This document shows, in pieces, positions 1 through 10,974 of a stretch of DNA of 10,974 bases. Numbering within the stretch: the stretch's first letter is position 1; each line of letters begins with the position of its first letter. A program made the translations under genes and the position numbers. The notes below the pieces were generated by a model. It saw only the letters and a list, made by a program, of their open reading frames with translations. It made no database searches and was not told where the DNA came from. This stretch comes from Streptococcus oralis (GTDB taxonomy: Bacteria > Bacillota > Bacilli > Lactobacillales > Streptococcaceae), in the NCBI GenBank assembly GCA_937930605.1, contig CALHBZ010000168.1, positions 1 through 10,974 on the forward strand, read 5' to 3'.

Positions 1-338
1 CTCACATGTCAGGATGGAACACTGGTAACAACTGGATCCTTTACATCAACGAAAATGTAACAGATGAGCAAATTGCACAATCTAAGAAAGACTTGGAAAC
101 TGCAAAAGAATCTCCAGCGCTTGGATTTATCTTTAACACTGACAACGTGAAATCTGACATCTCAGCTATCACTAACACTATGCAACAATTCGATACAGCT
201 ATCAACACTGGTACTCTAGACCCAGAAAAAGCTATTCCAGAATTGATGGCAAAACTTAAATCTGAAGGTGCTTACCAAAAAGTATTGGATGAAATGCAAA
301 AACAATACGACGAGTTCTTGAAAAACAAAAAATCATAA
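1..338 (+). CDS. ABC transporter sugar-binding lipoprotein, C-terminal end (partial)
   Basis: Only the last 112 codons are visible. The frame is open to the left edge (bases 1-2 finish an earlier codon), so the first Met in view is internal. The fragment is hydrophilic, Lys/Glu/Asp-rich and predicted helical. It has the Trp-Asn-Thr-Gly-Asn-Asn-Trp stretch and the Lys-rich tail (ending KNKKS) expected at the C-terminus of extracellular binding lipoproteins of the CUT1 sugar ABC family (LplA-like). Synteny recalled from TIGR4 places it as the SP_0092 equivalent. I remember that protein as NgtS, binding component of an N-glycan oligosaccharide importer, but I cannot verify this from so short a fragment. 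Its permeases would lie upstream, outside the window. A strong terminator follows 45 bases after the stop, so it ends its operon. Confidence 0.75.
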   Translation, partial: HMSGWNTGNNWILYINENVTDEQIAQSKKDLETAKESPALGFIFNTDNVKSDISAITNTMQQFDTAINTGTLDPEKAIPELMAKLKSEGAYQKVLDEMQKQYDEFLKNKKS

Positions 339-368
339 GATTGATTGATTTCGTGTATTCATTCCTAA

Positions 369-429
369 ATCCTAAAAATGTGATCACTGCCTTCCCTAGT
401 TCTCTAGGGGAGGTAGTGATTTTTAGGAT
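369..429 (+). terminator. Strong rho-independent terminator after the binding-protein gene
   Basis: A 17-bp stem pairs 383-399 with 404-420 (two G.U pairs) around a TTCT loop and is followed by TTTT at 421-424. Outside it, 369-377 pairs with 421-429 across a 5-base bulge, extending the helix. The left arm is preceded by an A-run, so it could also stop minus-strand transcription. It isolates the transporter operon from trhO. Confidence 0.9.
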
Positions 430-525
430 GTAAATCAAAAAATTGAGAGAATTATCTGCGATTCGGTATAGTTACTGATGAAGTGTAGGGACAGGGCGTT
501 TTCTATAAATTTCCGGTCAAATAAA

Positions 526-554
526 TTGCAATCACTTTCCCAAGTGGGTATACT
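526..554 (+). promoter_or_regulatory. Sigma-70-type promoter of trhO
   Basis: TTGCAA (526-531), a 17-base spacer and TATACT (549-554) form a good vegetative promoter. Transcription should start near 561. That makes the in-frame ATG at 566 nearly leaderless and without a ribosome site, and supports the ATG at 611 as the real start. The -10 lies inside a perfect 12-base palindrome, TATACTAGTATA (549-560), which may be chance or a regulator site. The stretch from 430 to 525 shows nothing else I can name. Confidence 0.75.
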
Positions 555-610
555 AGTATAGTTAGATGAAAAATTCTGAAAATTTAAGAATAGAAAAGAG
601 AACAAATCTT

Positions 611-1597
611 ATGGCAAAAGATATTCGTGTCTTACTTTACTACCTCTATACTCCAATTGAAAATGCAGAGCAATTTGCGGCAGATCACTTGGCTTTCTGT
701 AAATCAATCGGCCTCAAAGGTCGTATCCTAGTCGCTGACGAGGGAATCAACGGAACCGTTTCGGGTGACTACGAAACAACTCAAAAATACATGGACTACG
801 TTCACAGCCTCCCAGGAATGGAAGACCTCTGGTTCAAGATTGACGAAGAAAATGAACAAGCCTTCAAGAAGATGTTTGTTCGCTACAAGAAAGAAATTGT
901 CCACCTTGGTTTGGAAGACAACGACTTTGACAACGACATCAACCCACTTGAAACAACAGGTGCTTACTTGTCTCCAAAAGAGTTCAAAGAAGCCCTTCTT
1001 GACGAAGATACAGTTGTCCTTGACACACGTAACGATTATGAGTACGACCTAGGACACTTCCGCGGAGCTATTCGCCCAGACATCCGCAACTTCCGTGAGT
1101 TGCCACAATGGGTTCGTGACAACAAGGAAAAATTCATGGACAAGCGCGTGGTTGTTTACTGTACTGGTGGTGTTCGCTGTGAGAAATTCTCAGGCTGGAT
1201 GGTGCGTGAAGGCTACAAAGATGTCGGTCAGCTTCATGGCGGTATCGCAACTTACGGTAAAGATCCAGAAGTTCAAGGTGAGCTTTGGGATGGGAAAATG
1301 TACGTCTTTGACGAGCGTATCGCAGTTGATGTCAACCATGTCAACCCAACCATCGTAGGGAAAGACTGGTTTGATGGAACACCATGTGAACGTTATGTCA
1401 ACTGTGGAAATCCCTTCTGTAACCGTCGTATCCTAACATCAGAAGAAAATGAAGACAAGTACCTTCGTGGATGCTCACACGAGTGTCGTGTTCACCCACG
1501 TAACCGCTATGTTTCAGAAAATGAATTGACACAAGCAGAAGTTGTTGAGCGCCTAGCAGCTATCGGTGAAAGCTTGGATCAAGTCGCCTCAGTATAA
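611..1597 (+). CDS. trhO: tRNA uridine(34) hydroxylase TrhO (UPF0176, rhodanese family)
   Basis: The 328-residue product belongs to the TrhO/YceA/YbfQ family. By family knowledge these enzymes make 5-hydroxyuridine at wobble position 34 of certain tRNAs using oxygen, the precursor of mo5U in Gram-positives. An N-terminal alpha/beta domain (about 1-95) contains the conserved segment [16 protein letters not shown] rhodanese domain (about 115-220) carries the active-site loop CTGGVRC, with catalytic Cys184 and Cys190. The C-terminal tail has several cysteines ([12 protein letters not shown] and RGCSHEC) typical of the longer members and possibly structural. An in-frame ATG lies 45 bases upstream, but it falls about 5 bases after the predicted transcription start and lacks a ribosome site. 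The chosen start gives the usual [11 protein letters not shown] beginning and the length I recall for the pneumococcal protein. It is monocistronic, with its own promoter and terminator. Confidence 0.95.
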
Positions 1598-1600
1598 AGT

Positions 1601-1625
1601 AAACAGCCTTCAGGGGCTGTTTTTC
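1601..1625 (+). terminator. Rho-independent terminator of trhO
   Basis: AAACAGCC (1601-1608) pairs with GGCTGTTT (1615-1622) around a 6-base loop, and the T-run continues to 1624. It begins 3 bases after the trhO stop codon. Confidence 0.9.
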
Positions 1626-1681
1626 TATGCTTTTTATCTAAAAATCTAAAGTTTGTTTCTGTATCTTTCAGGAAAATAGGT

Positions 1682-1687
1682 TATACT
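1682..1687 (+). promoter_or_regulatory. Likely -10 element for the 286-residue hypothetical gene
   Basis: TATACT at 1682-1687 lies 31 bases before the start codon at 1718, leaving room for a short leader with the AAAGGAGG ribosome site (1704-1711). No good -35 is seen at 16-18 bases; the TTGTTT at 1653-1658 is too far. The preceding terminator makes a separate promoter necessary, so the call rests on the -10 and on position. Confidence 0.5.
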
Positions 1688-1717
1688 ATATGTAAACGAT
1701 TTCAAAGGAGGCCAGTT

Positions 1718-2578
1718 ATGGCGAAAACATTTTTTATCCCAAATAAAGAAAGCATTCTAGGACAACAGGAGATTTTGACTGCCAAGTCCATCTTGTCCTT
1801 GGTGGAGGACTTGGAGTCACACAGTTATGATGCGGTCTATCTCCGTCAGCCTCTTAACCGTCTCGAGTATATCGAGTGTGGGATTGTAGGCCAGTCGCAA
1901 TTTCTCTTCAAGGTCAACTATGCGGATAGTCGAAAAGGTTATCAAGTGGTGATCCCAGATTTCCTTACTAGAGCGGACTGGGAGATTGTAGAAACTCTCC
2001 TCCAGGCCCTATCTGGCAAGTTGGGGCAAGCGGTAGAAGGGCTAGAAGGCTTTGACTTTGAAGCTTATTTCCGACAAACGGTCAAGCATTATCTAGCTGA
2101 TAAGGCGATTCGTTTAGTATATTGCCAAGGGCTCTTGTCCCCGATCTATCTCAACAAGGACTACCTAGAGAGCTTTTTAGCAGAGGATGGATTGGCACGT
2201 TTTGAAGAGCTGGTCAAGAAGGTCCAAGGCTCTGATGCCTACCTTGCCAGTGTGAAATTTTACCCAGATGCTCAAGGCAAGGTGTACGGTATCTATCACC
2301 TGGCCCAGGGAGTCAAGACGATTTTGCCAAAGGAACCCTTTGTACCAGCTCCTTATACCGAGCAGCTGGCGGGCAAGGAGCTTGTTTGGGAGATTGACCT
2401 GGTGAAGATTTCTGGTGATGGCTCAAAAGCAGAAGACTATGAAGCCATTGCTCGCTTGGACTATGCAAAATTCCTAGAGTCACTACCAAAAGAATTTTAC
2501 CAGCAATTAGATGCTAATCAATTAGAAGTACAATCCATCCTAGGACAAGACTTTGAAGGATTGGCAATCATCAAGTAG
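1718..2578 (+). CDS. Conserved hypothetical protein, possibly DUF4299 family
   Basis: This encodes 286 residues with no signal peptide, no membrane segment and no motif I can tie to an enzyme, so it is probably a soluble cytoplasmic protein. It begins MAKTFFIPNKESILGQQEIL and mixes acidic helices with short beta-like segments. An N-terminal half (about 1-110) resembles a substrate-like fold with LNRLEYIECGIVGQSQF; the C-terminal half includes a KFYPDAQGKVYGIYHLAQG segment. From memory it corresponds to SP_0096 and may be annotated DUF4299; I am not certain of the family name. The start is supported by a perfect AAAGGAGG ribosome site seven bases ahead. It stands alone between the trhO terminator and a bidirectional terminator, so the context gives no functional hint. 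Its base composition is higher in GC than average for the window (32 of 60 at 1801-1860, counted by hand). Confidence 0.85.
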   Translation: MAKTFFIPNKESILGQQEILTAKSILSLVEDLESHSYDAVYLRQPLNRLEYIECGIVGQSQFLFKVNYADSRKGYQVVIPDFLTRADWEIVETLLQALSGKLGQAVEGLEGFDFEAYFRQTVKHYLADKAIRLVYCQGLLSPIYLNKDYLESFLAEDGLARFEELVKKVQGSDAYLASVKFYPDAQGKVYGIYHLAQGVKTILPKEPFVPAPYTEQLAGKELVWEIDLVKISGDGSKAEDYEAIARLDYAKFLESLPKEFYQQLDANQLEVQSILGQDFEGLAIIK

Positions 2579-2603
2579 ACACTGTTCAAAAAAGAGTAAG
2601 CAT

Positions 2604-2638
2604 AAAAATCCCTGTCATTAACAAATGACAGGGATTTT
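2604..2638. terminator. Bidirectional terminator between convergent genes
   Basis: A perfect 15-bp stem (2605-2619 with 2624-2638) surrounds a 4-base loop. It has an A-run on the left (2604-2608) and a T-run on the right (2635-2638), so it can stop transcription from either side. It fills most of the 62-base gap between the + strand gene ending at 2578 and the - strand gene ending at 2641. Confidence 0.93.
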
Positions 2639-2640
2639 GG

Positions 2641-3603
2641 TTAAAAGAATGTCAGGATGCGAAGGTAGTCCACTGTCAGCGCGAGCTCTGCAATGAAGAA
2701 GGGTAAGAGAATGGCACCATCAAGTAAGACAGTTAGCAGGAATCGATAAAATGGGTCGAGGCTACTGGTCTTACTTGGCTTGCTAATCACAAAGAGATTG
2801 CCAAGGGCAAAGATGGCCATGCTTAGAAGAGTGAGGATGCCAGCAAATCGTAAGCCACCAAAGAGTGCAAAGAAACTTGCTAGAGCTGTTAGGACAAGTG
2901 GGATAGCAAAGAGTCTGCTATACCGATCAAAGGCTTCTTGGAATGTAAAGTCGCTTTCCTGGTCCAGCACACGTCGGACAGTAAAGCCTCCCAAAATGAT
3001 GGAAAAGTAAAATAGAGCGCTAGCGACCAGAATCGAAAGTCCAGCAAAGAGATCTAAAGGTGGGAGCTGGTTAGGAGAACTATTAGCAATAGAGACCATA
3101 TAGCCATAGTAGAGGCGCTTGATATGATAGATACTAAAGAAAAGGTTGATTGACGACAGCAAGGTGAGTAGGGCAAAGACACTATAACGATGCTTTTGGT
3201 CCCTAGTCTTGCTGGCAGTTGGTTCTTGGATAGCGTCCAGCAGCCAAGTCCAAAATAGTGCGATTTCTTCTTTGAATTGAGCAGTTTTGCGGGGGTCAAT
3301 GTCTGGGATATAGGGACTATCTAAAGCTTTGCTGAGGATGCTTTTCTCTTTTACAGAGTTTTCTTGGTTGCGTTCCTCTTCAGCTTTCCCTTCTCCCTCT
3401 TCCTCGGTTTGGTCTTCTTCTATCGTTTCTGGAGCTTCCTCCTCATGCCTTTCCGACTCTTTAGGTGAGACAGGTGTTTCTTGGCTTGCTTGTGGTTCGG
3501 TCTCTACAGTATCCGAAGTCTCTGGTTGGTCGGGCTGGATTTCCGATTTCGTCTGAGCTGATTTCTTCTCAAGATCGGCGCTTTCAAACCATTCTTGTGT
3601 CAT
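2641..3603 (-). CDS. Multi-pass membrane protein with long acidic N-terminal tail
   Basis: The 320-residue product has two parts. Residues 1 to about 100 are rich in Glu, Gln, Ser, Thr and Pro, with runs such as EEAPETIEEDQTEEEGEGKA, and should be disordered and probably cytoplasmic. From about residue 145 there are roughly five hydrophobic segments (for example YSVFALLTLLSSINLFF and LFAGLSILVASALFYFSIIL) ending near the C-terminus. I do not recognise a named family. The start was placed at ATG 3601-3603 because AAGGAGG lies seven bases ahead; a 22-codon in-frame extension upstream has no ribosome site. It follows the DUF4097 gene by 62 bases and shares its strand, so it can be read as the last gene of the padR operon. 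A separate promoter candidate lies in the gap. A role in the envelope is inferred from neighbours only. Confidence 0.85.
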   Translation of the reverse strand: MTQEWFESADLEKKSAQTKSEIQPDQPETSDTVETEPQASQETPVSPKESERHEEEAPETIEEDQTEEEGEGKAEEERNQENSVKEKSILSKALDSPYIPDIDPRKTAQFKEEIALFWTWLLDAIQEPTASKTRDQKHRYSVFALLTLLSSINLFFSIYHIKRLYYGYMVSIANSSPNQLPPLDLFAGLSILVASALFYFSIILGGFTVRRVLDQESDFTFQEAFDRYSRLFAIPLVLTALASFFALFGGLRFAGILTLLSMAIFALGNLFVISKPSKTSSLDPFYRFLLTVLLDGAILLPFFIAELALTVDYLRILTFF

Positions 3604-3640
3604 GGTGGAACCTCCTTTTTTATGATCGTTTTCTATTTTT

Positions 3641-3669
3641 AGATTAGCAGATGAAAGCGTTTTTGTCAA
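3641..3669 (-). promoter_or_regulatory. Candidate internal promoter for the acidic-tail membrane protein
   Basis: On the minus strand a perfect TTGACA (3664-3669) overlaps the stop codon of the upstream gene. After 17 bases comes TAATCT (3641-3646), which keeps the key T-A....T positions of a -10. A further 37 bases, including AAGGAGG, lead to the start codon. It would let the last gene be expressed apart from padR control. Confidence 0.45.
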
Positions 3670-4595
3670 TGGTTTCTAGATGGAGAAGAGTACTCTTCTT
3701 TTGGTAGGTAGATATCTTGGTTGGCTTTTGCAATGAGTAGGTCCTTGATATCTGCTTTTTCCGTTTTATAAGGGTTGGCAAGTACATTCTCTTTTTGTCC
3801 ACGATGTTCTTCTTTGGGTTGACGATAGATACCACCATGTTGAGAAGAAATTTCTAGATTGATACGGTCGGTCTCTTTCTGGGAGAGAATGAGTTGTAGA
3901 GTTGAATAAGCCTCTAGCTCGACCTTGCCGTGAACTTGGATATTTTCAGCATAGATGTGTGCTCCCTCCGTCTTGACCTGACTATCTGTCAATTCGGTAT
4001 CAAAGATATTGATGATATGAGGTGCCGTTAATGTGCTGTTCTTGATAGAACTTTCTGTTAGTCTTAAGAGATAGCCTTTTGTTTTGATGGTTGCATTTTC
4101 AAGGTTGGCTTGACGAATATTAGTTTGTCCACGATTGGCTGAGACGGTGATAGCTTGCAGCTTTCTTCCTTTGGGTAGGGAGAGAACGACTTCGTCAAAA
4201 CGATTAGAATAGTTGCTGGCGATACGAAGTAGGCTTTCGATTCCTGAACCGAGAAAACGATGTTGGGAGGCTTGTTTGTCAGTGACGCTCAGTGTTTTGT
4301 CACTCATTCCAGTAGTTAGATCGTGACGGCCAGACACTGACGGATGATAGGTGATATGGATCTTGTCATCTACAGACTCTGTGATGGTTAGGCTATGTTC
4401 CTCAAGGGTCAAATCAAGTTTTTCCACTTCACTTCCAAAGGTTACTTCTTCGGTGCGATTGTCATAGACGGGGTCTTTTGACATGGCAAGCAAACTTTGA
4501 ATACCATTGGACTGGGCACCTGCAACTATCATGATAAAACCAAGGATTGTAGAAACCACACCAAAAATGAGAAATCCTTTCGTCAATTTACGCAT
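3666..4595 (-). CDS. Membrane-anchored DUF4097-type beta-repeat protein
   Basis: A 309-residue protein with one N-terminal hydrophobic segment (about 7-27) and no lipobox, so an uncleaved anchor or signal. An extracellular region follows. It contains many short beta strands with alternating hydrophobic residues (SLTITESVDDKIHITY, LQAITVSANRGQTNIRQANL, IYAENIQVHGKVELEAY), the pattern of the DUF4097 putative-adhesin beta-helix fold. The C-terminal 60 residues are charged and less regular. A GTG three codons upstream is in frame, but the ribosome site GAGGTG (4602-4607) contains that GTG and is spaced six bases from ATG 4593-4595, which I took as the start. The start overlaps the DUF1700 stop by 8 bases, implying translational coupling. 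PadR, DUF1700 and DUF4097 genes commonly occur together in Firmicutes; the molecular activity is unknown. Confidence 0.85.
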   Translation of the reverse strand: MRKLTKGFLIFGVVSTILGFIMIVAGAQSNGIQSLLAMSKDPVYDNRTEEVTFGSEVEKLDLTLEEHSLTITESVDDKIHITYHPSVSGRHDLTTGMSDKTLSVTDKQASQHRFLGSGIESLLRIASNYSNRFDEVVLSLPKGRKLQAITVSANRGQTNIRQANLENATIKTKGYLLRLTESSIKNSTLTAPHIINIFDTELTDSQVKTEGAHIYAENIQVHGKVELEAYSTLQLILSQKETDRINLEISSQHGGIYRQPKEEHRGQKENVLANPYKTEKADIKDLLIAKANQDIYLPKEEYSSPSRNH

Positions 4596-5181
4596 GTCTG
4601 TCACCTCTCTTTCCTTTTTTAAGAATCCATTGTACCAAGCGGACGATTAGGAGGCCAAAGAAACGAGCTACATAGGAGATACCTAGTAGAACAAGAGAAG
4701 AAGCACCGATAGCAAGCAAACCAGCCCCGAAAATCAAGATAAAGGCAGATTTGGCTTCGACTAGGACACTAAAGCTCTCTACGATAAAGAGTCCGCCCAG
4801 CAGGATACCTGTCACAGAGACGGTAAAGAAGGCTAGAATGACGGAGGCAGCTGCGATAAAAAGCCCGATAATGGTTAAGATAATTGCAATTCCCACAGGG
4901 ATTCCGATAGGGGCTGCTAGTAAGGCAAGTAGGGCAATGTGTAGCAGTTGGCGGTCATTCTTTTGAGCTGGTGTCTCATTAACTTTTTTGTCGAGGAGGT
5001 TAGAGAGGACATCATGAGCCGCTTCTTTTGGTGTTCCCAGACTAGCAATGAGCTCCTCTTCGCCCTCTGGACCTGCATCGTCAAATAGTTCCTTAAAGTA
5101 GTCCATGGCTTCAATGCGGTCGACTTCAGGTAGTTTATGGAGATAGGTTTCTAACTGAGTCAGATAGTCAGTTCTTGTCAT
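4588..5181 (-). CDS. DUF1700 (HAAS-type) membrane protein
   Basis: This 197-residue protein begins with a soluble helical domain of about 65 residues carrying the family signature: YLTQLETYLHKLP, then EAMDYFKELFDDAG, then SLGTPKEAAHDVLS. This matches DUF1700, also called HAAS, which is typically encoded beside PadR regulators. Residues 78-190 hold about four strongly hydrophobic segments, and the C-terminus is basic (KKGKRGDRHA), so the tail probably stays inside. The start codon overlaps the end of padR by 14 bases and the stop overlaps the DUF4097 start by 8, so the three genes are very likely co-transcribed and coupled. From the family I infer a membrane sensor or scaffold working with the DUF4097 partner. 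No catalytic residues are evident. Confidence 0.9.
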   Translation of the reverse strand: MTRTDYLTQLETYLHKLPEVDRIEAMDYFKELFDDAGPEGEEELIASLGTPKEAAHDVLSNLLDKKVNETPAQKNDRQLLHIALLALLAAPIGIPVGIAIILTIIGLFIAAASVILAFFTVSVTGILLGGLFIVESFSVLVEAKSAFILIFGAGLLAIGASSLVLLGISYVARFFGLLIVRLVQWILKKGKRGDRHA

Positions 5182-5494
5182 GGCGGATACTCCCTTCTAT
5201 GATGCCGTTGACGGTGTCGGTATAGAGCGTCCACTCTTCCTTTAGAGTAATGAGCTGCTCTACGCCCCGATTGGTCAAGGAGTAGTATTTGCGCATACGC
5301 CCCTGAAACTCTCTAGAGTAGGTGGTTAGAAAGCCACTGGCTTCCAATTTTTTGAGAATGGGATAGAGCGTAGATTCTTTTATATTGGCGATGAGCTTAA
5401 TGGTTTGGCTAATCTCATAACCATAAGAATCCCCCTGCTCCAGTACAGCCAAGATGAGAAACTCGATCAAGGCAGAGGATGTTGGGAAGTACAT
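5168..5494 (-). CDS. PadR-family transcriptional regulator
   Basis: A 108-residue protein, the usual size of the short PadR subfamily. The winged helix covers about residues 8-80: LILAVLEQGDSYGYEI, then ESTLYPILKKLEASGFLTTY for the recognition helix and the start of the wing, then RKYYSLTNRG. A short C-terminal helix (about 80-105) would serve dimerisation. By family it should be a repressor that binds an AT-rich dyad and responds to an envelope signal or a small ligand, which cannot be told from sequence. The start is fixed by AAAGGAGG six bases ahead. It is first in the operon, and its stop region overlaps the DUF1700 start by 14 bases. A perfect 19-base dyad lies just upstream of the ribosome site, consistent with autorepression of the whole operon. 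Confidence 0.92.
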   Translation of the reverse strand: MYFPTSSALIEFLILAVLEQGDSYGYEISQTIKLIANIKESTLYPILKKLEASGFLTTYSREFQGRMRKYYSLTNRGVEQLITLKEEWTLYTDTVNGIIEGSIRHDKN

Positions 5495-5512
5495 GGGAAA
5501 CCTCCTTTATAT

Positions 5513-5531
5513 TATATAAAAATTTTATATA
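5513..5531 (-). promoter_or_regulatory. Putative PadR operator 1 (perfect 19-base dyad)
   Basis: TATATAAAA-A-TTTTATATA has two perfect 9-base arms around a central A. On the minus strand it lies about 10-28 bases downstream of the predicted transcription start and just before the padR ribosome site, a classic roadblock position. Assignment to PadR is inference from location. Confidence 0.55.
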
Positions 5532-5547
5532 TACTCTTTTCAAATAT

Positions 5548-5576
5548 ATTGTATCTCAATATGAAAGCCCTGTCAA
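5548..5576 (-). promoter_or_regulatory. Promoter of the padR operon
   Basis: On the minus strand TTGACA (5571-5576), a 17-base spacer and TACAAT (5548-5553) give a near-consensus vegetative promoter. Transcription should begin near 5541, leaving a leader of about 47 bases that contains the dyad. Such a strong promoter flanked by AT-rich motifs fits a normally repressed operon. Confidence 0.85.
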
Positions 5577-5586
5577 GAAATATGTG

Positions 5587-5603
5587 TAAAAATTTTATAT
5601 ATA
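5587..5603 (-). promoter_or_regulatory. Putative PadR operator 2 (17-base copy upstream of the promoter)
   Basis: TAAAAATTTTATATATA at 5587-5603 repeats 5517-5533 exactly, exactly 70 bases apart, and brackets the promoter on the other side (about -46 to -62). Here the left arm of the dyad is imperfect (TGTGTAAAA instead of TATATAAAA), so it may be a weaker site. The end of this motif also forms part of the U-tract of the neighbouring terminator. Confidence 0.4.
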
Positions 5604-5632
5604 AAAAAACTCCTAGTAAAAACTAGAAGTTT
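5603..5632 (-). terminator. Rho-independent terminator of the repeat/DUF2971 gene
   Basis: Read on the minus strand, 5622-5632 pairs with 5607-5617 (one mismatch in 11) around a 4-base loop and is followed by a T-run (5603-5609). It starts 18 bases after the stop codon. It insulates the padR promoter from the accessory gene. Confidence 0.85.
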
Positions 5633-5650
5633 AGAGGATGTTGTCAGCCT

Positions 5651-7879
5651 TTATCTAAATTTTATCGTAGATTTCTTATACTTAATTTCCTTATTTAAAA
5701 GTTTTAATAGAGGAGTCACGTACTCAGGATTCGGAAACTTAGGACCGAAAATGACTTCACCGATTTGGATTGAATTTTCACGTTCTATATAAAGTTTACC
5801 TACTCCAGAAGTTTTATCAATTTTAATTTCCTTATTGCTAGGATCTAGGTTGGCATAGCGTAAGATACGAAGTTCGTTTTCATATTTGTAATCAACAGAT
5901 TTAAATAAGTAGCGAATTTCTTCTATACATTCAGCAATAGCATTTTGATAGTTCTCCTCCGTAATTTTTGAACCGATATCTAGCTTTTCTTTTAAACTAT
6001 TCAACAATTTTTCTAATTCTTCTATTTCCGACTTCTCAAATAGTTCAGTTCGTTCTAGTTTTAAATTTTCCTTTATATGCTTAACATAGGCAATTCGGTA
6101 GAGATAATCACTATTCCCTTTTGAATCACTATCTTTTTCTACAGAATTCGGTTCAGTTCCTTCATCATTAACAGTATCGACTGAATTTTCACTTTCACTC
6201 CGAAAGATAGATTTTTCAAAACTACTATTTAATTCAGATTTCAGTAAATACATCTTATCAGAGAATTCTAAAAAGTTTTTTTCTTGACGCCACGAAACAT
6301 CATTGAAGGAAGTAAATCTAGAAAAATCATCTTCACGAAGTACTAGACAAACACCTTTGGCATCATCACCATACTGGGACCACATGGCCAAATCATCCGT
6401 TTTGTTTGTAAAACTCATTAAAAACCATGAGCTTGGTTCCAAAACATCTCGTCTATCTAAGCCCAATATCTGTTCTATGACGATTCCTTCTTCAGGATCA
6501 TTCATATAATTAGCATTATACAAACGAGTTTTCCCAGATACCGAAAAAGTACTTTTCTTCTTTTCATTCTCCTCTTGATCTAACATAATTTGGAGAGTGC
6601 TCCCCTTGGTGTAGTGGCCGAATTTAAGCACCTGATTTTTATATTCGTCTTTTAGTCCCAGTTGATACTTGATTTTCTGAACAATTTGATAAATTGATAG
6701 CAAGTTCTTTAGTTCACTGGAGTCTTCTTTATAACGAACTGTCCATTTTTGTAAAATAGCATATTTAGTATTCTTTAAAAGCCCTTCCCTTAGGATAAAG
6801 TTGAATAGCATGTACTTCTTACTGTCACAAACATTATCATTACTAAAAAATAAATCATCAAAATTTTGTAACATAAAGTTGGAGAATTGTTCATAGAGTT
6901 TTTTAATTATTTTTGTGGTTTGAAGACGTTCGTCTACCTCCGTTTGATAATCAAATAAGCTTGCTAAGAACACACTATATATAAAAGCAATTTCTTCGGA
7001 TTTTGGAAATTTTTGCTGCAATTTTTCTAATTTTTCGACAGTAGCCTTCCGCTCCTTCAACTCAGTCTGTATGGTTGACAAATTAACCAAAATCATGGCA
7101 TACTTCGAAGCTATATCAGGCGAATCCTGGAATTGTTGCTGTAATTTCTCTAATTTTTCAGCAGTGGTCTCTAGTTCCTTCAACTCAGTTTGCTTGGTTG
7201 ACAAATTGAACAAAATCATGGCATACGGCAAAGCTATATCAGGCGAATCCTGGAATTGTTGCTGTAATTTCTCTAATTTTTCAGCAGTAGCCTTCCGCTC
7301 CTTCAACTCAGTCTGTTCGGTTGACAAATTGAACAGAATCCTAGCATAACGTAAAGCTATATTAGGTGAATCCTGGAATTGTTGCTGTAGTTTCTCTAAT
7401 TTTTCAGCAGTGGTCTCTAGTTCCTTCAACTCAGTTTGCTTGGTTGACAAATTGAACAAAATCATGGCATACGGCAAAGCTATATCAGGCGAATCCTGGA
7501 ATTGTTGCTGTAATTTCTCTAATTTTTCAGCAGTAGCCTTCCGCTCCTTCAACTCAGTCTGTTCGGTTGACAAATTGAACAAAATCCTGACATAACGTAA
7601 AGCTATATCAGGTGAATCCTGGAATTGTTGCTGTAATTTCTCTAATTTTTCAGCAGTAGCCTTCCGCTCCTTCAACTCAGTTTGTTCGGTTGACAAATTG
7701 AACAAAATCCTAGCATAGAGTAAAGCAATGTCTTCTGATTCAGGATATTGTTCATAAATTATTCTTGCTTTTTCTGCCAGAGCTTCACAGGCAGTCTTAT
7801 CTGTCTCCTTGGCTGATAAGTAAAAGAGCTGATCTAACTCTGCTAAACTTTCTTCCAAATTGTATTTCAGTTCATCCAT
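5651..7879 (-). CDS. TPR-like repeat protein with C-terminal DUF2971-type domain
   Basis: The 742-residue product is probably cytoplasmic, with no signal peptide or membrane segment. Residues 26-312 are seven consecutive 41-residue helical repeats of TPR type. Units at 67-271 are nearly identical; the first and last have diverged. A helical linker follows to about 415. The C-terminal region matches my memory of DUF2971: FGHYTKG near 420, LYNANYMNDPEEG (453-465), FLMSFT (486-491), LAMWSQYGDDAKGVCLVL (497-514), YRIAYV near 597 and ENELRILRY (667-675). An acidic low-complexity insert (about 560-592) interrupts it. I chose ATG 7877-7879, which follows GAGGTG by six bases; a TTG 14 codons upstream lacks a ribosome site. 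The gene has its own promoter and terminator, is AT-richer than its neighbours and lies between genes I recall as adjacent in TIGR4. This suggests acquired cargo. DUF2971 activity is not established to my knowledge; a stress or phage-defence role is speculative. Confidence 0.85.
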   Translation of the reverse strand: MDELKYNLEESLAELDQLFYLSAKETDKTACEALAEKARIIYEQYPESEDIALLYARILFNLSTEQTELKERKATAEKLEKLQQQFQDSPDIALRYVRILFNLSTEQTELKERKATAEKLEKLQQQFQDSPDIALPYAMILFNLSTKQTELKELETTAEKLEKLQQQFQDSPNIALRYARILFNLSTEQTELKERKATAEKLEKLQQQFQDSPDIALPYAMILFNLSTKQTELKELETTAEKLEKLQQQFQDSPDIASKYAMILVNLSTIQTELKERKATVEKLEKLQQKFPKSEEIAFIYSVFLASLFDYQTEVDERLQTTKIIKKLYEQFSNFMLQNFDDLFFSNDNVCDSKKYMLFNFILREGLLKNTKYAILQKWTVRYKEDSSELKNLLSIYQIVQKIKYQLGLKDEYKNQVLKFGHYTKGSTLQIMLDQEENEKKKSTFSVSGKTRLYNANYMNDPEEGIVIEQILGLDRRDVLEPSSWFLMSFTNKTDDLAMWSQYGDDAKGVCLVLREDDFSRFTSFNDVSWRQEKNFLEFSDKMYLLKSELNSSFEKSIFRSESENSVDTVNDEGTEPNSVEKDSDSKGNSDYLYRIAYVKHIKENLKLERTELFEKSEIEELEKLLNSLKEKLDIGSKITEENYQNAIAECIEEIRYLFKSVDYKYENELRILRYANLDPSNKEIKIDKTSGVGKLYIERENSIQIGEVIFGPKFPNPEYVTPLLKLLNKEIKYKKSTIKFR
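6944..7804 (-). repeat. Tandem 123-bp repeat array coding for TPR-like units
   Basis: Five near-identical 123-base units occupy 7559-7681, 7436-7558, 7313-7435, 7190-7312 and 7067-7189. Diverged units flank them at 7682-7804 and 6944-7066. The period was checked on the CGAATCCTGG motif, which recurs at 7121, 7244, 7367, 7490 and 7613. A higher-order period of 246 bases is also present: 7145-7335 and 7391-7581 are identical over 191 bases. Every unit keeps the reading frame, since 123 is divisible by three, so gain or loss of units would leave the protein intact. Confidence 0.97.
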
Positions 7880-7958
7880 CCTGTGCACCTCACTTAAAAT
7901 AGTAGCTATTTTATAAACCAATTTATTTTTCGTATGATAATTAGTTTCTATACATCTT

Positions 7959-7988
7959 ATTATATCAAAAATGCCATCTTTCTGCTAA
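7959..7988 (-). promoter_or_regulatory. Promoter candidate for the repeat/DUF2971 gene
   Basis: On the minus strand a perfect TATAAT (7959-7964) follows TTAGCA (7983-7988) with an 18-base spacer. The leader to the ATG at 7879 would be about 70 bases. It lies downstream of the terminator of the transporter gene, as an independent unit requires. Confidence 0.6.
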
Positions 7989-8016
7989 TAGATGGATGGT
8001 GCCTTTTCTTGATATA
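7961..8016. repeat. Imperfect inverted repeat overlapping the repeat-gene promoter
   Basis: TATATCAA (7961-7968) and TTGATATA (8009-8016) form perfect 8-base outer arms. Inside, TGCCATC (7972-7978) can pair with GATGGTG (7995-8001) using two wobble pairs. The structure covers both the -10 and the -35 of the gene that follows. It may be a regulator site or a decayed small repeat element; I cannot assign it to a named family. Confidence 0.5.
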
Positions 8017-8022
8017 AGCACC

Positions 8023-8044
8023 AAAAAAACCAGACAGAGTCTGG
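8023..8044 (-). terminator. Rho-independent terminator of the MFS transporter gene
   Basis: Read on the minus strand, CCAGAC (8039-8044), a 3-base loop and GTCTGG (8030-8035) form a compact hairpin followed by seven T (8023-8029). It lies about 40 bases after the transporter stop codon. Confidence 0.9.
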
Positions 8045-8082
8045 CTTTGCATTGTTTATATCTGAGAAGTGTTTTAGAATAA

Positions 8083-9249
8083 TTAGAGTATCTTATCCGC
8101 GCGATTCACCATAAAGAGTGAGATAGTCATGATGATATCAATGGCTAGAAGGGCAAGGACAGCTGGAATCCAAGATTGGAAAAGGTCAAAGCTATAACCA
8201 AACAAGGTAGGACCAAAGGCTGCCAAGATGTAGCCCCCTGTTTGCGACAGACCTGAGAGTTGCGCAGTCTTTTCAGGCGAACTTGTCTTAAGTGAGAAGC
8301 AAACCATGAGATAAGGAAAGAGAGCACTGCAGGCTGTCCCAATCAAGAGGTGAACTACTAGCCAGTAGAGGAAGTTATTGCTTGGATATAAGAGCATGGC
8401 AATTCCTATCATGCCAGCGATAGAGATTATTGCCAGCATGATTTGACGGTGACCGTCTGACAGATGAGTTGTCAGACTTGGGATGGTCATGGAAAAAGGA
8501 ATGCTGATCAGCGAGAAGATAGAAGCTAGAAGAGCCGCATCACTATTAGAAAGACCAGCACTAATAGCCATAGTTGGCAACCAGGTAATACTTGTATAAA
8601 AGAGCAAGGACTGAAGACCGCCAAAGACAATGATGGCCCAGACAGATTTGCTTTTTAGAATATTATCTTTCGATTTCTTTTCTTGCTGCCCTTCTAGATA
8701 GTGGTTGTGGCGATGATTTGGCAACCAGATTAGCAGAGTGACCAGACAGAGAAAGCTGAGAACAAGGATCAAGCCCTTCCAAGAACTAGCTTGGATGATA
8801 GGGACAGATAGATACGAGGCAATAGCTGTGGAAATCCCCATAGAAGTGACATAGAGTGTCGTTAGGAGACTGATTTTTTGAGGCTGATTTGCCTGAATCA
8901 TACTTGGGAGAAGAACATTAAAAATAGCAATGCTCGCTCCGACAATCAAGGTCCCTAGATAGAGAAGGGGAAGGCTGAAGATACGAATGACAGAACCAAT
9001 AGTTAAGAGAAGGAGACAGTAGGTAAAGAGATGCTCTAGTCCAATCTTTTGCGCCAAGCGACTTGCAAAAGCAGAGAAAAGAGCAAACATTAAGAGAGGG
9101 AGACTGGTTAAAATACCGAGAGAACTAACCTCGACTCCTAGCCCCTGAGCGATATCTCCTAAAATAGTTGGAAGAGCAGTAAAAGGAGAGCGCAAAACAG
9201 TCCCGATTAAGACAATCCCTAGGATAAAAAAGAGTGATTGTTTTTTCAT
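8083..9249 (-). CDS. CynX/NimT-family MFS transporter
   Basis: A 388-residue protein that is hydrophobic throughout, with about twelve predicted membrane helices and a charged central loop (around 187-200, HRHNHYLEGQQEKKSKDN) separating the two six-helix halves. This is the standard major facilitator layout and length. The N-terminal helix with LRSPFTALPTILGDIAQGLG resembles the CynX/NimT/YycB group, whose characterised members move cyanate or 2-nitroimidazole; the substrate here is unknown. Later helices carry the expected Gly-rich segments (SGLSQTGGYILAAFGPTLFG). The start is supported by GAGG five bases ahead. It is monocistronic, with a consensus promoter at 9284-9312 and a terminator at 8023-8044, and is divergent from the glycosyltransferase gene. 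It probably corresponds to SP_0101. Confidence 0.9.
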   Translation of the reverse strand: MKKQSLFFILGIVLIGTVLRSPFTALPTILGDIAQGLGVEVSSLGILTSLPLLMFALFSAFASRLAQKIGLEHLFTYCLLLLTIGSVIRIFSLPLLYLGTLIVGASIAIFNVLLPSMIQANQPQKISLLTTLYVTSMGISTAIASYLSVPIIQASSWKGLILVLSFLCLVTLLIWLPNHRHNHYLEGQQEKKSKDNILKSKSVWAIIVFGGLQSLLFYTSITWLPTMAISAGLSNSDAALLASIFSLISIPFSMTIPSLTTHLSDGHRQIMLAIISIAGMIGIAMLLYPSNNFLYWLVVHLLIGTACSALFPYLMVCFSLKTSSPEKTAQLSGLSQTGGYILAAFGPTLFGYSFDLFQSWIPAVLALLAIDIIMTISLFMVNRADKIL

Positions 9250-9283
9250 GAAAACCTCGATAAGATGATTTTAATAACAGCTT

Positions 9284-9312
9284 ATTTTAAGGTTTTTTCC
9301 TTATAATGTCAA
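9284..9312 (-). promoter_or_regulatory. Promoter of the MFS transporter gene
   Basis: On the minus strand TTGACA (9307-9312), a 17-base spacer and TAAAAT (9284-9289) form a near-consensus promoter. The spacer region contains a small dyad, TAAGG-N6-CCTTA (plus-strand reading, 9288-9303). It could be an operator, although the arms are only five bases. Confidence 0.8.
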
Positions 9313-9415
9313 GAAGAGGACTAGAAAGTCCAGCCCATCTTGCTTGAAAATATACAGACTCTTTTACTAAGTTTTTCATAGAATTAAAATAAAAATAGGA
9401 AACTAGGAAATTTTG

Positions 9416-9424
9416 TGATAAAAT
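9416..9424 (+). promoter_or_regulatory. Extended -10 promoter of the glycosyltransferase gene
   Basis: TG at 9416-9417, one base and TAAAAT at 9419-9424 make an extended -10 element; the -35 region is poor, as is usual for this class. The start codon is 33 bases downstream. The 9313-9415 stretch holds nothing else I can name. Confidence 0.65.
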
Positions 9425-9457
9425 AGTGGAAGGAAATCTATAAATTGGAGAAAAACT

Positions 9458-10288
9458 GTGTCTGAAAAGCAAAAAATCAGCGTCTTGATGTCGGTCTATG
9501 TAAAGGAAAATCCGACATTTTTGAGAGATGCCATCAAAAGTGTTCAAAACCAGACCTTGAAACCAAGTGAGATTGTTCTCGTAGAGGATGGGCCCCTCAC
9601 ACCCGAACTCTATCAGGTGCTAGATGAAGTGGAAGCTCAGTCAGACATTCCAGTTAAACGGTGCCCCTTAGAAGAAAATCAAGGTTTAGGTTTGGCTCTT
9701 CGATACGGTGTTTTACAGTGTCAGTACGATATCATCGCTCGCATGGATACAGATGATATAGCGGTAGCTGACCGCTTCGAAAAGCAAGTCCAACTAATGG
9801 AAGAGGAAAATCTGGATCTCTTAGGTGGACACATTGCAGAATTTATTGACAATCCTGATGAGATTGTTTCTTACCGTCGTGTTCCAACTCAGCACGCAGA
9901 CATTGTGGCTTACCAAAGGATGAGAAGTGCCTTCAATCACATGACTGTCATGTTCAAGAAGGATATGGTTCTCAAGGCAGGCAACTACGAAGACGGACTT
10001 TATATGGAAGATGACCTTCTCTGGCTCAATATGATTGCCGCAGGAGCCAAGACTGGAAACCTCGATCAGATCTTGTGTAAGGTTCGTGTCGGTGCAGGAA
10101 TGTTTGAACGTCGAGGTGGTTTGCGCTACCTCAAACTCTATCGTCAGGCTCGTCAACGCATGCTTGAAAGAGGCCAAATTTCCTACATGGAATATGCGAA
10201 AAGCATTGCTATTCAGGCGGTCGTCGCACTTTGTCCAGGTTTTGTACGTCAGTTTATTTTTGTGAAATTATTAAGAAAAAATAAGTAG
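9458..10288 (+). CDS. Family 2 (GT-A) glycosyltransferase
   Basis: The 276-residue protein is a GT2 enzyme that transfers a sugar from a nucleotide donor onto a lipid- or glycan-linked acceptor at the cytoplasmic membrane. Visible motifs are ISVLMSVYVKENP at the start of the Rossmann-like fold, LVEDG (41-45) for nucleotide binding, MDTDD (96-100) as the metal-binding DXD, and MEDDLLW (183-189), where the catalytic-base ED is expected. There are no clear membrane helices, but the basic hydrophobic C-terminus (FVRQFIFVKLLRKNK) could touch the membrane. Translation starts at GTG 9458, with GGAG seven bases ahead; no upstream ATG fits. It is followed 81 bases later by a CapD-like gene with its own promoter. 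Together they suggest surface polysaccharide synthesis. Donor and acceptor cannot be read from the sequence. Likely equivalent of SP_0102. Confidence 0.92.
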   Translation: MSEKQKISVLMSVYVKENPTFLRDAIKSVQNQTLKPSEIVLVEDGPLTPELYQVLDEVEAQSDIPVKRCPLEENQGLGLALRYGVLQCQYDIIARMDTDDIAVADRFEKQVQLMEEENLDLLGGHIAEFIDNPDEIVSYRRVPTQHADIVAYQRMRSAFNHMTVMFKKDMVLKAGNYEDGLYMEDDLLWLNMIAAGAKTGNLDQILCKVRVGAGMFERRGGLRYLKLYRQARQRMLERGQISYMEYAKSIAIQAVVALCPGFVRQFIFVKLLRKNK

Positions 10289-10316
10289 GCTTGTAAAAGA
10301 TAAAACAGCCAAAAAA

Positions 10317-10325
10317 TGTTATAAT
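10317..10325 (+). promoter_or_regulatory. Extended -10 promoter of the capD-like gene
   Basis: TG, one base and a perfect TATAAT (10317-10325) form a consensus extended -10; no good -35 is at normal distance. The leader to the ATG at 10370 is about 38 bases. No terminator is seen after the glycosyltransferase, so read-through can also supply this gene. Confidence 0.75.
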
Positions 10326-10369
10326 GACAATATATTTATTTGCATTCTTTTAAGGGAGAGTAAATTCCT

Positions 10370-10974
10370 ATGAATAAAAAACTAACAGATTACGTGATTG
10401 ATCTGGTTGAAATTTTAAATAAACAGCAAAAACAGGTGTTTTGGGGTGTATTTGACATTGTTAGTATGGTGGTTTCCATCATTGTGTCCTACATTCTCTT
10501 TTATGGCTTGATTAACCCAGCGCCTGTGGACTATGTTATCTATACTGGTTTGGCCTTCCTCTTCTATCAAATCATGATTGGATTTTGGGGGCTTAATGCT
10601 AGTATTAGTCGCTATAGTAAGATTACGGATTTCATGAAAATCTTTTTCGGAGTGACACTTAGTAGTGTTCTTTCCTATGGGATTTGCTACGCCTTTCTTC
10701 CACTATTTTCTATCCGTTTCATCGTGCTCTTTATCTTGTTGAGTACCTTCCTCATCTTGCTTCCTCGTATCACTTGGCAGTTGATTTACTCCAAACGCAA
10801 GCAAGGTAGTGGGGATGGCGAGCACCGTCGTACCTTCTTGATTGGTGCTGGCGATGGTGGCGCCCTCTTTATGAATAGCTACCAACATCCGACTAGCGAT
10901 CTTGAGCTAGTGGGGATTCTGGACAACGATGAAAAGAAAAAAGGGCAAAAACTAGGTGGAATCCCAGTTTTGGG
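10370..10974 (+). CDS. CapD/EpsC-like membrane nucleotide-sugar dehydratase/epimerase (N-terminal part)
   Basis: 201 codons are visible before the window ends. The protein starts MNKKLTDYVIDLVEILNKQQ and has four hydrophobic segments (about 23-47, 54-75, 87-110 and 112-135). A soluble domain follows with FLIGAGDGGALF (about 153-164), a Gly-rich nucleotide-binding turn, and then LVGILDNDEKKKGQKLGGIPVLG. This layout is that of the large bacterial CapD/WbpM/EpsC-like proteins, membrane-anchored UDP-sugar 4,6-dehydratases or epimerases of about 600 residues. The catalytic short-chain dehydrogenase half would lie beyond the edge. The start was chosen at ATG 10370-10372 after AAGGGAGAG, with somewhat long spacing. 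It probably works with the preceding GT2 enzyme to make or assemble a surface glycan. Likely equivalent of SP_0103. Confidence 0.88.
   Translation, partial: MNKKLTDYVIDLVEILNKQQKQVFWGVFDIVSMVVSIIVSYILFYGLINPAPVDYVIYTGLAFLFYQIMIGFWGLNASISRYSKITDFMKIFFGVTLSSVLSYGICYAFLPLFSIRFIVLFILLSTFLILLPRITWQLIYSKRKQGSGDGEHRRTFLIGAGDGGALFMNSYQHPTSDLELVGILDNDEKKKGQKLGGIPVL

Follow-up and report, generated by a model that had tools for sequence, protein, structure and literature searches.

The window analysed here (the whole stretch of 10,974 bp, positions 1 to 10,974 of Streptococcus oralis contig CALHBZ010000168.1) contains a minus-strand gene between an MFS transporter gene and an operon led by a PadR regulator gene. 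In the encoded protein, an array of repeats resembling the tetratricopeptide repeat (TPR) is followed by a DUF2971 domain (Table 1). The array of this TPR-DUF2971 gene gains, loses and overwrites units by recombination in frame, while the downstream DUF2971 domain is conserved, and therefore units are alike within a gene and the array differs between strains. An earlier note on this DNA had described five almost identical 123-bp units at 7067-7681. These units are real and in frame, but they form only part of a longer minus-strand array, and near identity holds for some units only, the six similar ones ranging pairwise from 95 to 122 of 123 bases. Tandem Repeats Finder reported 5.8 copies of 123 bp, or 2.9 copies of 246 bp, over 7008-7717. 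The identity of 7145-7335 with 7391-7581 was confirmed as exactly 191 bp that cannot be extended, and in our judgement so long an exact repeat, in an array of six in-frame units, goes far beyond what chance would give.

When units were located by a unit-profile scan in 17 genes with regular units (loci are numbered L and database proteins P throughout), 6 to 23 units were counted, with a spacing of 41 residues nearly without exception. Unit number thus changes with the frame intact, as had been predicted. Two more distant genes with irregular spacing (L089 and L091) were excluded from the count. Seven of the 17 genes lie on single contigs of 1.93-2.18 Mb and have 7, 12, 20, 11, 23, 12 and 12 units; they show variation between strains, not within a strain, because the strains differ elsewhere too. 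The search of the protein database yielded 1347 passing proteins, of which the best 120 are the basis of all protein counts. Length equals 742 modulo 41, within -2, 0 or +2, in 89 of the 120, and five pairs of proteins differ solely by a block whose length is exactly 1, 2 or 3 units, one of these pairs being P0002 of the window (742 aa) and P0078 (619 aa). Among 19 groups with at least two members (98 % over the last 330 residues), length differs within 16. Two copies look broken (L011:5905-9208, whose C-terminal half contains a change of frame, and L080:4467-5936, truncated on the N-terminal side), and intact copies were found in other strains.

The homogenisation of units suspected in the earlier note was also observed. 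The nearest relative of a unit was found in the same gene for 113 of 162 units, whereas 1000 label shuffles gave 11 on average and never more than 29 (16 genes; first and last units were excluded, as was L077, which nearly duplicates the window). The share varies by gene from 0/4 to 21/21. The mean nucleotide identity of core units is 88 % in the window and 70-90 % in the other genes. Three repeat dialects are present in the 16-gene set, about 50 % alike in DNA, with clearly related C-terminal domains. Judged from these comparisons, the likeness of units within a gene is a mark of concerted evolution.

The window was compared with L077, its closest single-contig relative, which has the same unit number and 38 differences in 2229 bases. 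Units 1-2 of the window contain 10 differences, all in a 91-bp patch at coding positions 336-426 (window 7454-7544), and at 10/10 of them the window carries the base found in its own copy 246 bp later in the gene. The sole differences between P0002 and P0004 lie within residues 113-142, and the other version of the patch is common to P0004, P0006, P0081 and L077. Accordingly, a stretch of 91 to 191 bp has been overwritten by sequence from elsewhere in the same gene, either through conversion or through faulty assembly. The nested 246-bp duplication proposed earlier was not supported in that form, as the longest exact lag-246 repeat of L077 is 63 bp, not 191; conversion of a short tract, or a chimeric assembly, explains the 191-bp identity better than a fresh 246-bp duplication, which is unneeded.

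An assembly artefact, in which units 3-4 were pasted over units 1-2 and the true array is of the L077 type, is a serious possibility, though not the one we favour. The alternative version of the patch is present in all four sequences named above, P0002 and P0004 are otherwise the same, and the 191-bp repeat exceeds common short reads in length. The array also breaks the assemblies of relatives, as the earlier note had warned: in five of 16 genome-scan loci the contig breaks off within the gene, and four more have runs of N in the array (L007 and L016 each hold half of the gene of one strain, so that the 16 loci represent 15 genes). Short-read assemblies are thus untrustworthy for unit number or order at the TPR-DUF2971 locus. 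However, P0002 is listed on two contigs, and exact repeats of 221, 225 and 296 bp were found in L079, L087 and L082, two of them on single-contig chromosomes (L079 and L082), so that long identity by itself is natural in these arrays.

Variation within a gene is concentrated at few unit positions. The dialects have correlated variability profiles (A-B 0.48, p 0.001; A-C 0.45, p 0.003; B-C 0.29, p 0.07), and positions 10, 13, 16 and 20 stand out in dialect A and are all raised in B. When the same positions were examined in L087 and in L182 (from a genome of the same order but not one of the 284 surveyed in the genus), where they had not been chosen, they gave the highest mean of all shifts (P 0.0016 and 0.0003, respectively); these P values are optimistic because the units alternate in two kinds and are not independent. 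L182:1-2088 encodes a DUF2971 domain with its own near-identical 40-residue repeats of two alternating kinds. Four repeat types thus share the same four variable positions on a predicted helix. Helix A was suggested for these positions by the TPR numbering W4-L7-G8-Y11 with its concave positions. The non-synonymous rate at the four positions divided by the synonymous rate is 0.74-2.42 in 16 genes and above 1 in nine of them, and the ratio at the remaining unit positions is 0.19-0.59. This pattern fits a variable face on a conserved helix, without proving positive selection.

The downstream domain passes the DUF2971 (PF11185) gathering score of 22 in the window (22.5 bits), L087 (29.6), L095 (39.4) and L082 (23.1), and L091 is just under it (21.1). 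Invariant motifs in a 22-row alignment are HYT, NDPxEG, MWxQY, RxLFK and ExExR. The best structural neighbours of the DUF2971 model are Tpt1/KptA (PF01885) and DarT (PF14487), both weak matches, and HYT of DUF2971 aligns with HFT of DarT. The gene differs from DarT in having no profile-level homology to it, no DarG-like partner and a large added TPR-like sensor. A Foldseek search of the PDB and viral structures with the first model, made from the window's own domain, gave nothing at E 0.001 or better, and a DUF2971 profile found no relative among solved structures (four matches at E 0.035 to 5.5, to designed proteins and one IscU). The PADLOC candidate PDC-S31 matches part of the DUF2971 region (E 2e-8; 97 of 208 model positions); it is a candidate family only, about half of the model is covered, and the matched stretch does not include the repeat array. 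The repeat array is absent from other DUF2971 proteins, streptococcal or related, of about 520-630 aa (L092, L093, L094 and L095, also L181, L187 and L195). Among the L092-L095 paralogues (about 520-560 aa) only L095 was scanned, and its N-terminal part gave a match to PDC-M01A, a PADLOC candidate.

The repeats are termed TPR-like because TPR_19 of Pfam reaches 29.4 bits (threshold 25) on the whole 742-aa protein with no single stretch passing, and two unrelated models (PEX6 and OSCP) likewise pass on the repeats. Their period is 41 residues (40 in L182), unlike the 34-residue period of TPRs; L185, from the same order, has 34-residue TPR-like repeats ahead of DUF2971, as judged by eye. NCBIfam and Pfam matches of the repeats to hydroxytetrahydrobiopterin dehydratase, ATP synthase delta and PEX6 were discounted as repetitive-helix matches. 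No match was obtained among phage records, or when solved structures were searched by sequence with the 742-aa protein.

The genes flanking the TPR-DUF2971 gene match S. oralis, S. mitis and kin. GC content is 0.28-0.39 over 5501-8000, compared with 0.464 and 0.436 in the adjoining 500-bp blocks; two other 500-bp blocks of the window are also low (0.36-0.37). In the 284 genomes of the genus, 48 match the C-terminal half and 28 do so strongly (E 5e-49 or better). By their flanks, 23 of the 28 lie at the MFS-PadR site (8, a further 10 with both borders, and 5 with a single border on a broken contig). The other five lie elsewhere, including L006 and L008, which reveal a second insertion site (L006:6001-8832 and L008:6147-8750, in S. 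sinensis and S. sanguinis) between genes that we take to be rnmV and ksgA.

A further 80 genomes were examined (those on the list of PadR matches whose sites had not yet been fetched, plus G111). Only 138-142 bp separate MFS and PadR in 54 of them, and the borders of filled and empty sites are the same. The other 26 sites contain a two-gene module (13), RT-Toprim (5), other genes (2), a TPR-DUF2971 gene at a contig end (1) or could not be resolved (5). The RT-Toprim protein of L098 matches RT-Toprim_I-C of PADLOC (E 3e-210) and passes the NCBIfam model for retron Ec67; the other four sites were assigned by likeness to L098, that of L105 being split into two frames. This retron family shares only the location with the TPR-DUF2971 gene, the proteins being unrelated. 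The two-gene module (L116:3676-5639 and 12 more sites) encodes proteins of about 498 and 141 aa, matches no family in NCBIfam, PADLOC or Pfam, and adjoins the TPR-DUF2971 gene in two gene-bearing loci (L082 and L088). The extra gene of L144 has no NCBIfam family, and at L136:572-4401 the site is occupied by two secreted-looking proteins (304 and 967 aa), not by a defence-like gene. By composition and flanks, the TPR-DUF2971 gene is a low-GC accessory islet at a variable chromosomal site.

Table 1 Features of the TPR-DUF2971 gene and its borders in the window
Feature	Position	Strand	Evidence
TPR-like repeat / DUF2971 gene, ATG start at 7879, 742 aa	5651..7879	minus	Open frame; database protein P0002
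N-terminal cap unit, weak likeness to repeats	7748..7870	minus	48-56/123 bases against other units, 42 against post-array segment
Six similar 41-aa (123-bp) units	7010..7747	minus	Pairwise 95-122/123 bases identical
Diverged seventh unit, closes array	6887..7009	minus	Unit comparison
Exact 191-bp repeat, copy 1 in coding order	7391..7581	minus	Identity comparison
Exact 191-bp repeat, copy 2, 246 bp further along gene, likely donor	7145..7335	minus	Identity comparison
Conversion-like tract, differs from L077 at 10 bases, each matching the lag-246 copy in the window	7454..7544	minus	L077 comparison
Helical linker, array to DUF2971 domain	6659..6886	minus	Helices at model residues 2-77
DUF2971 (PF11185) domain, predicted ADP-ribosyltransferase-like	5654..6658	minus	Pfam score, alignment, model
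Promoter-like site 5' of gene	7959..7988	minus	Consensus match only
Terminator-like hairpin 3' of gene	5607..5632	minus	Similar stretch at empty site of L097
PadR regulator gene, right border of variable site, outside the gene	5168..5494	minus	
MFS transporter gene, left border of variable site, outside the gene	8083..9249	minus	

On balance, we lean towards a single-gene phage-defence receptor, in which a recombining TPR sensor is joined to an ADP-ribosyltransferase-like effector, with the defence role, ligand and enzyme activity all predicted. The units would stack into an alpha-solenoid, and the hypervariable helix-A positions (10, 13, 16 and 20) would form the binding surface for a phage product. 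Binding would free the DarT/KptA-like ADP-ribosyltransferase domain (DUF2971), which would then modify nucleic acid or protein and stop the infected cell. Shuffling of units would renew recognition, and the 191-bp identity would be one product of it, with 91 to 191 bp converted from the block that lies 246 bp later in the gene (or else a chimeric assembly at this place). The retron-shared site and the partial PADLOC match are indirect pointers to defence. A precedent for the effector is CmdTAC, reportedly a phage-defence system with an mRNA ADP-ribosyltransferase, which is a three-part toxin-antitoxin-chaperone system, in contrast to the single gene of the window. In the literature on TPR arrays in phage defence, no paper on the TPR-DUF2971 gene was found among the matches listed.

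Several observations weigh against the defence receptor. The most frequent other cassette at the site, the two-gene module, is without defence annotation. The overall ratio of non-synonymous to synonymous rates (pN/pS) is 0.44-0.60, helical periodicity of unit variability was tested and was not significant, and profile homology between DUF2971 and DarT was not found (hhalign probability 1.1 %; 28 DUF2971 and 6 DarT sequences). In addition, many of the database proteins come from metagenome contigs, where units may be lost in assembly, which is the chief limitation of the near-isogenic comparisons.

Three other readings were considered. Neutral repeat dynamics, that is, slippage and unequal crossing-over in a gene of unrelated function with no selection for variability, would account for an overall pN/pS below 1, and recombination is expected in any array of near copies. 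However, non-synonymous change is concentrated at the four positions in every dialect and reaches 2.4 times pS in the most homogenised arrays, and we consider purely neutral change unlikely. A toxin-antitoxin or inter-bacterial conflict protein of the same architecture, with a trigger other than phage, seems to us equally improbable: ADP-ribosyltransferase-like folds do serve such systems (e.g. DarT) and the two-gene module also occurs at 13 of the 80 further sites, but in most strains a single gene without a conserved partner lies between the same two border genes, and no export signal was seen by eye. The length-tuned helical scaffold of the earlier note, in which unit number itself is the trait and a structural or binding protein owes its reach to the array, agrees with the whole-unit, in-frame variation but is very doubtful, as it predicts neither the hypervariability of the same positions of one helix in every repeat type examined, unrelated types included, nor the conserved effector-like domain joined to the array at a retron-shared cassette site, and as a surface ruler the 742-aa protein has, by eye, no signal peptide at its N-terminus and no wall anchor at its C-terminus. 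The hypervariable helix positions and the effector-like domain at the retron-shared site point to a recognition surface.

For the proposed defence receptor, one of the closest likenesses is to fungal NOD-like receptors (NLRs). Passages of two papers (PMC12222747, PMC4986451) describe fungal NLRs with highly internally conserved WD40, ANK or TPR repeats, such as het-d/het-e of Podospora, and report concerted evolution, number polymorphism and hypervariable concave TPR positions in these repeats. Set beside those passages, the window gene is similar in its near-identical sensor repeats, number polymorphism, concerted evolution, few hypervariable helix positions, effector on the same chain and trouble in short-read assembly (the concave TPR face comes from a 2014 paper). 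It differs from what they describe in being bacterial, in having no NACHT or NB-ARC domain among the Pfam matches at E 1 or better, and in its DUF2971 effector. The fungal type is recognised by repeats more than 85 % alike together with number polymorphism, and the window shows both (mean 88 %). By analogy, the TPR-DUF2971 protein would work like the fungal internally conserved repeat receptors, yet it is not one of them. Tentatively, and as something possible rather than probable, we propose a bacterial counterpart of fungal incompatibility receptors in streptococci and relatives: one gene with a unit-exchanging TPR array, in which a few hypervariable positions would determine recognition, and a so far unrecognised DarT/KptA-like ADP-ribosyltransferase (DUF2971) that would kill or arrest the infected cell.

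If this is true, a function would be given to DUF2971, a family named in only one paper of the full-text literature searched, and a recognition domain renewed by recombination, as in the fungal receptors, would exist in bacteria in compact form, as a single gene with a constant position. That one place on the chromosome would, across natural strains, offer a repertoire of specificities, and allele, unit content and phage range would be directly comparable.
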